64,000 nucleotides of DNA from the NCBI RefSeq assembly GCF_003846445.2, contig NZ_CP030139.2, positions 2,335,223-2,399,222 of the forward strand. The letters are read 5' to 3'. The notes below the pieces were generated by a model. The model was not told the DNA's origin. It saw only the letters and a program-made list of their open reading frames with translations, and did no database searches. Positions 10,804 to 58,332 of this stretch are shown piece after piece (the first letter of the stretch is position 1; each line of letters starts with the position of its first letter). Made by a program: the position numbers and the translations under genes. The DNA is from Synechococcus elongatus PCC 11801 (GTDB lineage Bacteria > Cyanobacteriota > Cyanobacteriia > Synechococcales > Synechococcaceae).

Positions 10804-11290
10804 TTAGGCACTGAGGCTATTGGGGTTGGCGGTACGGCCTTGACCAATAAAGCGCTGGCTGAGTTCTGGATATGTTGGCTTAAGTCGGGGTGACTGCGCT
10901 GTAGGACTTTGAGTAGGCTGGAGATTTCGAGGGCAGTACTCATTCATGGTGCTGTCGTTGAGAAGAAGGTAGAGGTCGCTGAGGCGATCGCTGAGTTGGC
11001 GCAATTTGGTTACGTTGTTCGAGGATGCGATCGCTGATGACGTAGTCGGCGAGGAAGCGACTGGTGTTGAGGCTGCTGAGAAGCCAGGTGGGGTTGGTTT
11101 GCAGCAGGGTGGCAGTGTAGGTGACAAAGCCTTGGCTTTTGCTGCCTTGCTTGGTGAGGCGTTGGCGTTGTTTGGGGGTGAGGCTGGGTAGGGGATCAAA
11201 GAGGGTTTGCCGTTGCATCAGAATGTCTCGGAGTTCGTCGAGTTGTGCGGGGGGTAGAGATGAGGTCACGGACATTTTGGATGACTCCAA
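10804..11290 (-). pseudogene. Frameshifted conserved cyanobacterial hypothetical gene
   Basis: No single frame is intact, but three pieces in different frames join into one protein-like sequence. These are MSVTSSLPPAQLDELRDILM to LADYVISDRI (from 11275), VTKLRQLSDRLSDLYLLLND followed in the third frame by STALEISSLLKVLQRSHPDL (about 10948-10870), then LSQRFIGQGRTANPNSLSA ending at 10804. This needs shifts near 11020, 10940 and 10870. It resembles a short cyanobacterial family of unknown function that I recall only loosely. Confidence 0.6.
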
Positions 11291-53153: not shown

Positions 53154-53966
53154 ATGAAATCAGTCTGGAATTGCTTGCTGGAAAATGTCGGTGAATGGCG
53201 GGGCAGCTTTGCCAGCCTCAATCTGCAGGGCGAAATTCTGTCTGAACAGCCGACGATCGTCACCCTCACTGCCAGTGATGATCGTCAGCAGGCCAAAATC
53301 GTTGTCGACTATCAGCGGGAACCGGAGCGACGAGTCGAGATTCCCTTTGCCAGTGTTAGTCGCGCCTATATCGGCTTTGATGATGGGGCCTTTTCCCAAG
53401 GCAGTATGCAGCTTGCACCCTTCGGGGAGTTCGGAGCAGAGCAGGGTCTCCTCGCTGATCAACAACGTCGCCGCCTGGTCTGGCAGTATCGCGATCGCCA
53501 GCTCCAAGGAGTGACCCTGATTCGGGAAGCCCAGCCTGGCATTGATGCCTTTCAGCAACCAGCCCTTACCGTTCAAGACTTACTGGGCACTTGGATCGGA
53601 GAGGCTGAAACTCGCTATCCCGACTGGCGATCGCCTGATCGGATGACCACCCAACTGCGGTTAGAGCAAAACGGTGACCAGCTCCGTTCTCAGCTCTCGT
53701 TTGGCGATCTCACGATTGAATCCCTCGCCCAAATTCAAGGATCGCAACTGGTCTTTACTGGCAAACAACAGGAAGTTACCGTCTGGTTATTACCGGGTGG
53801 CGTGAGCTGTGCTTGCCCGACAGAATTGACCCTGCGATCGCCCTTTCAGCTTGAACTGGGTTGGTGGATCAGCCGCGATCGCCGGCTTCGTTTGATGCGC
53901 AACTTCGATGCCAGTGGTGCTTGGACGAGTGTGACCCTAGTGACTGAGCAACGGGTTAGCGATTAA
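53154..53966 (+). CDS. DUF3598 family (lipocalin-like) protein
   Basis: 270 residues: two beta-barrel-like halves starting NCLLENVGEWRGSFASLNLQG and LLGTWIGEAETRYPDWRSP. The first resembles the DUF3598 family seen in cyanobacteria and plants and related in fold to lipocalins and CpcS-type lyases. Ligand unknown; soluble. Converges with and overlaps the next gene by 11 bp. Confidence 0.78.
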   Translation: MKSVWNCLLENVGEWRGSFASLNLQGEILSEQPTIVTLTASDDRQQAKIVVDYQREPERRVEIPFASVSRAYIGFDDGAFSQGSMQLAPFGEFGAEQGLLADQQRRRLVWQYRDRQLQGVTLIREAQPGIDAFQQPALTVQDLLGTWIGEAETRYPDWRSPDRMTTQLRLEQNGDQLRSQLSFGDLTIESLAQIQGSQLVFTGKQQEVTVWLLPGGVSCACPTELTLRSPFQLELGWWISRDRRLRLMRNFDASGAWTSVTLVTEQRVSD

Positions 53967-54498
53967 TGCCTGTGCCTGTCGCTGGTTTAATCGCGAGAAT
54001 GCCCGTCGGCTGAATGATGCTGTTGGGCACCCAGTAGAACAGCGCTTGGCCGGGAATGCGTTGCTCATCCGGGAGCGCGAGGAAGCCAATGAAGCTACCA
54101 CCGGCACCACTCTCAGCGGTTGGACCCACGTTTTGCCGCTCGTAGAACTCAATTTGACCGGTCTGGCTGTCGATATAGCCAAAAACTTCCGATTGGCGAT
54201 CGCCACCCCAATTCAGCAGACCTGCGAACGACAACACCCGTCCTGAAATGGAATAGCCTGTGACCTGCAGCCCCGTCGGATAGTTTTGAGCCTGCGTGGA
54301 CGCCTCGTAAGTAAAGTTGCCCTGCCAGTTGCGAGGCAGTCGTTCTAGCAATACTTGAGGGGAAGCCCAAGGGGAAAGCTCAGGGGTGACGCGATTGAAA
54401 AAAGCATCGCGATTGAAGATGCTTTGAGCCATCGCCGGTAGCGCTCCGGCTGTTACCGTTGCGGCTGTGAGCAGGGCAGACAGAAACAGCGATCGCAT
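53956..54498 (-). CDS. Exported hypothetical protein
   Basis: 180 residues from ATG 54498 (longer frame to 54525). The signal peptide RSLFLSALLTAATVTAGALPAMA is cleaved near residue 25. The mature part is beta-rich with many Gly and aromatic residues (LPRNWQGNFTYEAS, GYIDSQTGQIEFYER, FWVPNSII-like end). No family recognised. It lies downstream of a minus-strand promoter/terminator unit that may control it by attenuation. Confidence 0.7.
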   Translation of the reverse strand: MRSLFLSALLTAATVTAGALPAMAQSIFNRDAFFNRVTPELSPWASPQVLLERLPRNWQGNFTYEASTQAQNYPTGLQVTGYSISGRVLSFAGLLNWGGDRQSEVFGYIDSQTGQIEFYERQNVGPTAESGAGGSFIGFLALPDEQRIPGQALFYWVPNSIIQPTGILAIKPATGTGINR

Positions 54499-54545
54499 AA
54501 CAACTCGACGAGCTACTACCGTCATTATGACAGGCTGGTCTAGGC

Positions 54546-54573
54546 AAAAAAAAACCTCGGCAGAACCGAGGTT
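54546..54573 (-). terminator. Strong Rho-independent terminator
   Basis: On the minus strand AACCTCGG pairs with CCGAGGTT (5-nt loop), followed by nine T. It is 47 bp upstream of the start of the minus-strand gene at 54498, so it terminates something begun before that gene. Confidence 0.85.
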
Positions 54574-54672
54574 ATCGATACAGAGCTGAGTCGAGGAGGA
54601 GAAGGGTCAGTCTCGAAATGCTTGTTCTGAAACGCTGTAAAAGCGCCAGCAGGTCGTCACTGTCTTTCTCTG
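54546..54672 (-). ncRNA. Candidate small RNA or attenuator leader
   Basis: On the minus strand a -35 TTGACA (54707-54702), a 17-bp spacer and a -10 TACAAA (54684-54679) point to a start near 54672. The RNA would end at the strong terminator at 54573-54546, about 125 nt. Before the terminator is an open pyrimidine stretch, CUUCUCCUCCUCG, complementary to GAGGAG ribosome-binding sites. A 17-codon frame (MTTCWRFYSVSEQAFRD) occurs inside. It lacks the ACUCCUCACAC core of Yfr1. It could be a trans-acting RNA or the attenuated leader of the downstream exported-protein gene. Confidence 0.45.
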
Positions 54673-54678
54673 TAAATT

Positions 54679-54707
54679 TTTGTAACTCTTTGTCGCAATT
54701 TTGTCAA
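54679..54707 (-). promoter_or_regulatory. Predicted sigma-70-type promoter
   Basis: TTGACA, 17 bp, TACAAA on the minus strand, back to back with thiG. Confidence 0.5.
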
Positions 54708-55975: not shown

Positions 55976-57184
55976 GTGAAGATTCTTGTATTGGGTGGCG
56001 ATGGTTTCTGCGGGTGGCCCTGCGCTCTCAATCTGGCTGCTGCAGGCCATACCGTCACCATTGTGGACAACCTCGTTCGCCGCAAGACGGATGTGGAATT
56101 GGGGGTGCAGTCCCTCACGCCGATCGCCACAATCGAACGCCGGTTGCAAGCCTGGCAAGAGACGGGTGGGCAACCCATTGGCTTCGTTAATCTCGATCTG
56201 GCTGCCGACTACGATCGCCTCTGCGCGTTGCTGTTAGAGACCCAGCCCGATGCGATCGTTCACTTCGCAGAACAGCGTGCTGCTCCCTACTCGATGAAGA
56301 GTGCTTGGCACAAGCGCTTCACGGTTAATAACAACGTCAATGCCACCCACAACCTGCTCTGTGCCTGCGTGGATGTCGGCTTGAAAGCCCACATTGTCCA
56401 CTTGGGCACCATGGGCGTTTATGGCTATGGCAGCCATCGCGGGGCCACGATTCCTGAAGGCTATCTGGAAGTTGAAGTGATTCAACGGGATGGCCAACGC
56501 TTTGAGGAGAAAATTCTTCACCCCGTTGATCCGGGCAGTGTCTATCACATGACCAAGACGCTGGATCAGTTGTTGTTCTACTACTACAACAAGAACGACA
56601 ACATCCAAGTCACTGACCTTCACCAAGGCATCGTTTGGGGTACCAACACGGATCACTGCAACCTCCATCCTGATCTGACCAACCGGTTTGACTACGACGG
56701 TGACTACGGCACGGTTTTGAACCGGTTCTTGATGCAGGCGGCGATCGGTTATCCCTTGACTGTGCACGGGGTTGGCGGTCAGACCCGCGCCTTTATCCAT
56801 ATTCGCGACTCAGTGCGCTGCGTTCAGCTGGCGATCGAAAATCCACCCGCCGCCAATGAAAAGGTCCGTATCTTCAACCAGATGACGGAAACCTATCAAG
56901 TCAAAGACTTGGCAGAGAAAGTAGCAGCGCTGACTGGGGCTGAGATTGCTTACCTCCCGAATCCTCGCAAGGAAGCGCCGGAAAACGACCTGATTGTTGA
57001 TAACCGCTGTCTGCTAGATCTCGGCCTCAATCCGACCACGTTGGACGATGGCCTGATGAGTGAGGTCGTAGAAGTCGCTCAAAAGTTTGCCGATCGCTGC
57101 GATCGCGCCAAAATCCCCTGCGTTTCGGCTTGGACCCGCAATCAAGCGGAAACACTCCAGGCTCCTGAAACCGCCCTGCGCTAA
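55976..57184 (+). CDS. sqdB: UDP-sulfoquinovose synthase
   Basis: Makes UDP-sulfoquinovose from UDP-glucose and sulfite, the head-group donor for the thylakoid lipid SQDG. 402-residue SDR with GTG start at 55976: NAD motif GGDGFCG (7-13), FAEQRAAPYSMKS and the catalytic Y190-HMT-K194, plus DLHQGIVWGTNT. It is followed by sqdX after 14 bp, the usual cyanobacterial pair. Confidence 0.96.
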   Translation: MKILVLGGDGFCGWPCALNLAAAGHTVTIVDNLVRRKTDVELGVQSLTPIATIERRLQAWQETGGQPIGFVNLDLAADYDRLCALLLETQPDAIVHFAEQRAAPYSMKSAWHKRFTVNNNVNATHNLLCACVDVGLKAHIVHLGTMGVYGYGSHRGATIPEGYLEVEVIQRDGQRFEEKILHPVDPGSVYHMTKTLDQLLFYYYNKNDNIQVTDLHQGIVWGTNTDHCNLHPDLTNRFDYDGDYGTVLNRFLMQAAIGYPLTVHGVGGQTRAFIHIRDSVRCVQLAIENPPAANEKVRIFNQMTETYQVKDLAEKVAALTGAEIAYLPNPRKEAPENDLIVDNRCLLDLGLNPTTLDDGLMSEVVEVAQKFADRCDRAKIPCVSAWTRNQAETLQAPETALR

Positions 57185-57198
57185 TTCACGCTCTTTCT

Positions 57199-58332
57199 AT
57201 GCGCATTGCTCTCTTTACCGAGACGTTTCTGCCGAAGGTGGATGGCATTGTCACGCGTCTGCGACACACGGTCGACCACCTGCAGCGTCTCGGTCACACC
57301 GTCATGGTCTTCTGTCCAGATGGAGGCATCCGGGAGCACAAGGGAGCCCGCGTCTATGGTGTTCAGGGGTTTCCGCTACCGCTCTATCCAGAGCTGAAGC
57401 TGGCCTTCCCATTGCCCAAAGTCGGCAAAGCCTTGGAGCGGTTTCGTCCAGATCTGATCCATGTGGTCAATCCGGCAGTGCTAGGACTGGGTGGTATCTA
57501 CTACGCTAAGGCGCTGAATGTGCCGCTGTTGGCCTCTTACCACACACACCTGCCGAAGTATCTGGAGCACTACGGTTTGGGCGTCTTGGAAGGGGTGCTT
57601 TGGGAGTTGCTCAAACTCGCTCATAACCAAGCGGCGATCAACCTTTGTACCTCCACGGCAATGGTGCAAGAACTGACCGAGCACGGCATCGAACACTGCC
57701 AGCTCTGGCAGCGAGGGGTTGATACCGAAACGTTCCGACCAGACTTAGCTTCCGCTGCGATGCGCGATCGCCTCAGTGGGGGCAACCCAGAGGCACCGCT
57801 GTTGCTCTACGTTGGTCGTCTCTCAGCAGAAAAGCAAATCGATCGCCTGCGGCCAATTTTGGACGCCAATCCAGAAGCTTGCTTGGCCTTGGTGGGCGAT
57901 GGCCCTTATCGCGCTGAACTGGAGCAATTATTTGCGGGTACCAAAACCCGTTTCATAGGCTATTTGCATGGCGAGCAACTCGGAGCGGCCTATGCATCTG
58001 CGGATGCCTTTGTCTTCCCCTCGCGGACTGAAACCCTCGGCCTCGTCTTGCTAGAAGCGATGGCAGCGGGCTGTCCAGTAGTCGCGGCCAATTCCGGCGG
58101 GATTCCTGACATCGTCAGCGATGGCGCCAATGGTTTCCTGTTTGATCCAGAGGATGAACAAGGGGCGATCGCTGCAGTTCAGCGGTTGTTGGCCAATCCC
58201 ATGGAACGCGAAACGCTACGAATGGCAGCTCGCCAAGAGGCTGAGCGTTGGAGTTGGAGTGCTGCTACTCAACAACTCCAAGACTATTACTGCGAAGTCG
58301 TGGCGGGTGGTTGCTTGCCCTTAGCCGCCTGA
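57199..58332 (+). CDS. sqdX: SQDG synthase (sulfoquinovosyltransferase), GT4
   Basis: Transfers sulfoquinovose to diacylglycerol at the membrane, the last step of SQDG synthesis. A 377-residue GT4 enzyme starting RIALFTETFLPKVDGIVTRL, with LLYVGRLSAEKQIDRLRPIL and FPSRTETLGLVLLEAMAAGCPVVAANSGGIPD (in two runs), including the E-x7-E motif. Likely an operon with sqdB. Its last 46 bp overlap the convergent mrdA gene. Confidence 0.95.
   Translation: MRIALFTETFLPKVDGIVTRLRHTVDHLQRLGHTVMVFCPDGGIREHKGARVYGVQGFPLPLYPELKLAFPLPKVGKALERFRPDLIHVVNPAVLGLGGIYYAKALNVPLLASYHTHLPKYLEHYGLGVLEGVLWELLKLAHNQAAINLCTSTAMVQELTEHGIEHCQLWQRGVDTETFRPDLASAAMRDRLSGGNPEAPLLLYVGRLSAEKQIDRLRPILDANPEACLALVGDGPYRAELEQLFAGTKTRFIGYLHGEQLGAAYASADAFVFPSRTETLGLVLLEAMAAGCPVVAANSGGIPDIVSDGANGFLFDPEDEQGAIAAVQRLLANPMERETLRMAARQEAERWSWSAATQQLQDYYCEVVAGGCLPLAA

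Follow-up and report, generated by a model that had tools for sequence, protein, structure and literature searches.

A minus-strand unit of Synechococcus elongatus PCC 11801 that is almost certainly psrR1

On the minus strand of Synechococcus elongatus PCC 11801, between thiG (+) and a short exported-protein gene (-), a promoter and a terminator enclose a stretch of DNA (54546-54707) that, as a sequence-only reading had claimed, no protein-coding ORF accounts for. All positions are those of the window, by which we mean the whole 64-kb stretch of DNA that was analyzed. Does this unit encode a regulatory RNA of its own or is it the leader of the gene that follows it? The evidence presented below shows that it is almost certainly psrR1, the gene for the trans-acting sRNA PsrR1, and an ortholog of a PsrR1 that has been mapped by experiment. 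The psrR1 gene of S. elongatus has already been published, and what was detected here is a real sRNA gene but not a new one.

Promoter, transcript and terminator

The TTGACA/17 bp/TACAAA promoter, the CU-rich stretch and the terminator of the sequence-only reading were all found where it had put them on the minus strand (Table 1). The promoter does not appear in the list produced by the promoter scanner because its -10 element is poor. It is above chance because an HLR1 box overlies it and because it is conserved. The CU-rich stretch (CTTCTCCTCCTCG) has one exact copy in the 64 kb, where 0.13 copies with at most one mismatch would be expected, and the terminator is the strongest of five local terminator-like sites (1.4 expected). 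The fold of the 127-nt RNA is more stable than that of shuffled sequences (z -2.45). In the predicted fold, part of the CU-rich stretch is paired to the 5' end of the same RNA, while its CCUC stays open. In PCC 11801, the sRNA probably starts within a few nucleotides of 54673.

The feature that pointed to PsrR1 was one that the earlier reading had overlooked, namely the HLR1 box over the -10 element and the start region. The light-responsive regulator RpaB recognizes HLR1, which has the consensus KTTACAWWNNKTTACAWW; over the -10/start region the box is in a repressing position, which acts in low light (PMC13421787). The box in PCC 11801 has a single mismatch to this consensus and is the best site in the window. 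No second site with two or fewer mismatches to the consensus was found within the 64 kb; a weaker copy overlaps the main box. The repressing position over the promoter is the one expected of a psrR1 gene, and RpaB probably binds there.

Table 1. Features of the psrR1 unit and its surroundings (window coordinates)
Feature	Position	Strand	Basis and remarks
-35 element TTGACA	54702..54707	-	Sequence; identical in the PCC 6301-like copy (L003)
-10 element TACAAA	54684-54679	-	17-bp spacer from the -35 element; poor match
HLR1 box (RpaB site) GTTACAAAAATTTACAGA	54669..54686	-	Covers the -10 element and start region
Weaker HLR1 copy	54696-54679	-	Overlaps the main HLR1 box
PsrR1 sRNA, about 128 nt	54546..54673	-	Orthologous to UTEX 2973 PsrR1, with matching coordinates; alignment
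CU-rich stretch CUUCUCCUCCUCG, with PsrR1 core UUCUCCU	54592..54604	-	Proposed pairing site; Rfam consensus, predicted cpcB pairing
Intrinsic terminator, stem AACCTCGGT/GCCGAGGTT, 9-T tail	54546..54573	-	Terminator scan, fold, alignment; stem at 54573-54553, T run reaching 54546
Exported protein	53956-54525	-	Adjoins psrR1
Small ORF MPYTTEEGGRLNNFAKEPKMYQ..., 56 aa	55712-55882	+	One hydrophobic helix
Likely sulfolipid pair	55976-58332	+	sqdB-sqdX-like

The mapped PsrR1 of S. elongatus

In UTEX 2973, PsrR1 is a 131-nt RNA with its nTSS at 11,213 (+) of CP006471 and a log2FC of +5.79 in high light, and PCC 7942 has an sRNA of equal length (131 nt) at 557,130-557,000 (PMC6091082). The closest genome to PCC 11801, here called G001, provides the link to this map. 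The Yfr1 motif of G001 falls inside the published PCC 6301 Yfr1 interval (2,417,299-2,417,363), and G001 therefore matches PCC 6301. The unit is present in the same place in G001, with 87% identity from promoter to terminator (about 87% over 261 bp). The two copies differ by one indel and by changes in an apical stem, and between positions 38 and 100 of the RNA alignment the single indel is the sole difference. The promoter is kept, and so are the CU-rich stretch and the terminator, on whose conservation in close relatives the sequence-only reading had staked its case.

The start of the unit in G001 is at 1,063,752, which corresponds to an offset of 1,052,539 relative to the UTEX coordinates. 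With this offset, the predicted start of psaA falls about 20 bp or less from the position derived from its TATAAT, and the predicted tmRNA start precedes the ARAGORN one by 64 bp (it lies before the mature end). With psaA and tmRNA as anchors, the unit lies within about 20-65 bp of the mapped start of UTEX 2973 PsrR1. From this coordinate transfer we infer orthology between the window unit and the mapped PsrR1; a fit by chance is unlikely. Of the two options that had been offered, the sRNA is thus the right one, and it is the PsrR1 that was mapped by experiment in S. elongatus. The locus is the same as in UTEX 2973 and PCC 7942 by coordinates through G001, and the RNA is of similar length (128-131 nt), whereas PCC 11801 is another species-level genome. 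A second S. elongatus species is hence confirmed to carry an intact copy of a published light-acclimation sRNA.

The second option was that the unit acts as a leader attenuator for the exported-protein gene that follows, with translation of a 17-codon leader frame deciding termination. The spacing is compatible with such an arrangement, as 20 bp separate the terminator from the first in-frame ATG of that gene (54525) and, as had been pointed out, 47 bp separate it from the ATG at 54498, which begins a signal-peptide-like N-terminus. The 17-codon GTG frame is indeed real in the window, but in the sister species it stops after four codons (at codon 5), whereas the promoter, CU-rich stretch and terminator are all kept. 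Furthermore, a CATAAT box that is kept in both species between the terminator and the gene could be the gene's own -10 element, the unit is retained in distant relatives, and the UTEX 2973 RNA is a free 131-nt sRNA (PMC6091082). Leader attenuation is therefore extremely improbable, and the unit is best described as the gene of a free PsrR1.

A likeness to Yfr1 had also been suggested. Both RNAs have a CU-rich stretch able to meet Shine-Dalgarno sequences, but the window RNA is without the Yfr1 core ACUCCUCACAC, as had been recognized at the time, and it occupies a different locus; the Yfr1 motif of G001 is a separate one. The proper comparison is with PsrR1. RF01121, which was tried as a Yfr1 model, turned out to be sR38, another family.

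The Rfam model and the wider cyanobacterial family

PsrR1/SyR1 of Synechocystis PCC 6803 (RF02701) and the window RNA are alike in the HLR1-controlled promoter, the UUCUCCU core, the 3' terminator and a length of about 131 nt, but the sequence beyond the core has diverged and the Rfam score is under the cut-off. At the gathering score, Rfam finds a tRNA alone and no PsrR1 in the 64-kb window. The psrR1 locus is the best match of RF02701 in the PCC 11801 genome, though it is sub-threshold, with 19-22 bits compared to a cut-off of 42, and most of the match is the terminator. Because the cut-off is not reached, the identity rests on the locus, HLR1, the core and the published mapping. The UUCUCCU inside the CU-rich stretch is the core of Rfam's PsrR1 model, and its order in the window unit, core and then terminator in about 131 nt altogether, is that of PsrR1.

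RF02701 scores above the cut-off in two other genomes, G064 and G230, where the core is UUGACAUUGAGUUCUCCUA and lies ahead of the terminator. A pattern of HLR1 followed by TCTCCT at 52-82 nt matches in 27 of 242 cyanobacterial genomes, compared to a handful of matches for the reversed control. HLR1 and UUCUCCU are common to these relatives, and so is a terminator, located at 117-145 nt. Six new matches have the identical layout, with the core TTCTCCT...CAACACAGC upstream of the terminator. In G163 and G237, the best sub-threshold RF02701 match coincides with a match of this wide family, and both cores are found in that sequence. Six loci (L198, L199 and L265-L268) have bridging sequences that connect Rfam's PsrR1 with the wider TTCTCCT/CAACACAGC family.

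When GTDB genomes were scanned for the derived core pattern TTCTCCT-N1-7-CAACACAGCAA, at least 119 loci matched. Among the 119 matches listed, 59 are cyanobacterial and 60 are not. A terminator follows directly downstream in 55 of the 59 cyanobacterial matches listed versus 2 of the 60 others, and an HLR1 with two or fewer mismatches is present in 33 of the 59 versus none of the 60. Of 390 cyanobacterial genomes, about half have a member of the wide family (190 at E <= 0.05, weak matches included). As this family bridges to RF02701 and is likewise below its cut-off, the model is too narrow, and most of the PsrR1-like genes tested escape it. Automatic annotation consequently overlooks PsrR1 in S. 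elongatus and in most of the tested wider cyanobacterial family. A sequence-only profile of 25 wide-family relatives misses both S. elongatus genomes, from which it follows that their PsrR1 is divergent in primary sequence. A covariance model made from the two S. elongatus sequences alone matched only unrelated terminators elsewhere.

Could the RNA at the published PsrR1 locus be a separate, S. elongatus-specific high-light sRNA that came under analogous control by independent origin and is not homologous to Synechocystis PsrR1? Both the Rfam PsrR1 model and the wide-family profile stay below threshold at the locus, as such an origin would have it. However, the homology has been published on the basis of BlastN and GLASSgo (PMC6091082), and two of the bridging intermediates (L267 and L268) agree with the window unit in the HLR1 over the promoter, the terminator and the total length. 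They also match it in the UUCUCCU core with UGAC before it and in ACNCAGC. We consider an independent origin very improbable and treat the RNA as PsrR1.

Predicted targets and neighboring genes

The PsrR1 of cyanobacteria is switched on in strong light and lowers the production of light-harvesting and photosystem I proteins. In PCC 11801, RpaB sitting on HLR1 over the -10/start site would block transcription in low light. In high light, RpaB would depart and an RNA of roughly 128-131 nt, ending at the terminator, would be made. The CU-rich core UUCUCCU of this RNA would then reduce the translation of photosystem I and phycobilisome mRNAs by pairing with their ribosome-binding regions. By analogy with the UTEX 2973 ortholog, high-light induction is to be expected in PCC 11801 as well. 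The Synechocystis PsrR1 is established to target psaL, psaJ, chlN and cpcA by binding at their ribosome-binding regions, and together with RpaB it makes up a feed-forward loop (PMC6202907, PMC12850537).

The sequence-only reading proposed that the CU-rich stretch could pair with GAGGAG-type ribosome-binding sites. Such pairing fits the known action of PsrR1. Taken together, the pairing energies of its known targets are no better than background (p 0.21), and duplex energies calculated without restrictions told nothing about targets. Among the photosynthesis genes tested, the CU region is predicted to pair most strongly with the two cpcB leaders, in which UCUCCU pairs with AGGAGA and CUCGACU with AGUCGAG, thus covering the Shine-Dalgarno sequence. 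Among 175 gene starts these leaders fall in the top 2-4%, shuffled segments did as well in 0 of 1000 and 9 of 1000 cases, respectively, and the pairing is predicted in G001 too. The psaA start is in the best 4% of gene starts, yet 13.5% of shuffles are equally good. Predicted pairing with psaL, cpcA and apcE is unremarkable among the 175 gene starts, and most candidates other than cpcB are no better than background.

These comparisons suggest that cpcB is the most likely target of PsrR1 in PCC 11801. More tentatively, the S. elongatus PsrR1 might carry a two-part seed that is specific to its lineage, UCUCCU together with CUCGACU, and that is tuned to the leader of cpcB (AGUCGAG-AAC-AGGAGA, Shine-Dalgarno covered), such that phycocyanin and not psaL is its main target. 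A broader PsrR1 model and a test of the cpcB target would be useful, though not surprising.

Neither Pfam nor NCBIfam has a match for the exported protein encoded beside psrR1, and a search for the protein in viral contigs found none. On the other side, about 1 kb from psrR1 and between thiG and the sqdB-like gene, the small ORF of Table 1 resembles a high-light-inducible protein (HliP/Scp). The likely sulfolipid pair consists of a UDP-sulfoquinovose synthase-like protein (NF041015, below cut-off) and a group 1 glycosyltransferase. Also of note is that the PF02605 match to psaL of G001 (L249/L250, G001:C1:1906066-1906493) comes in two pieces in different frames. The gene is whole in the PCC 11801 genome, and its split in G001 is a frameshift or a sequencing error.
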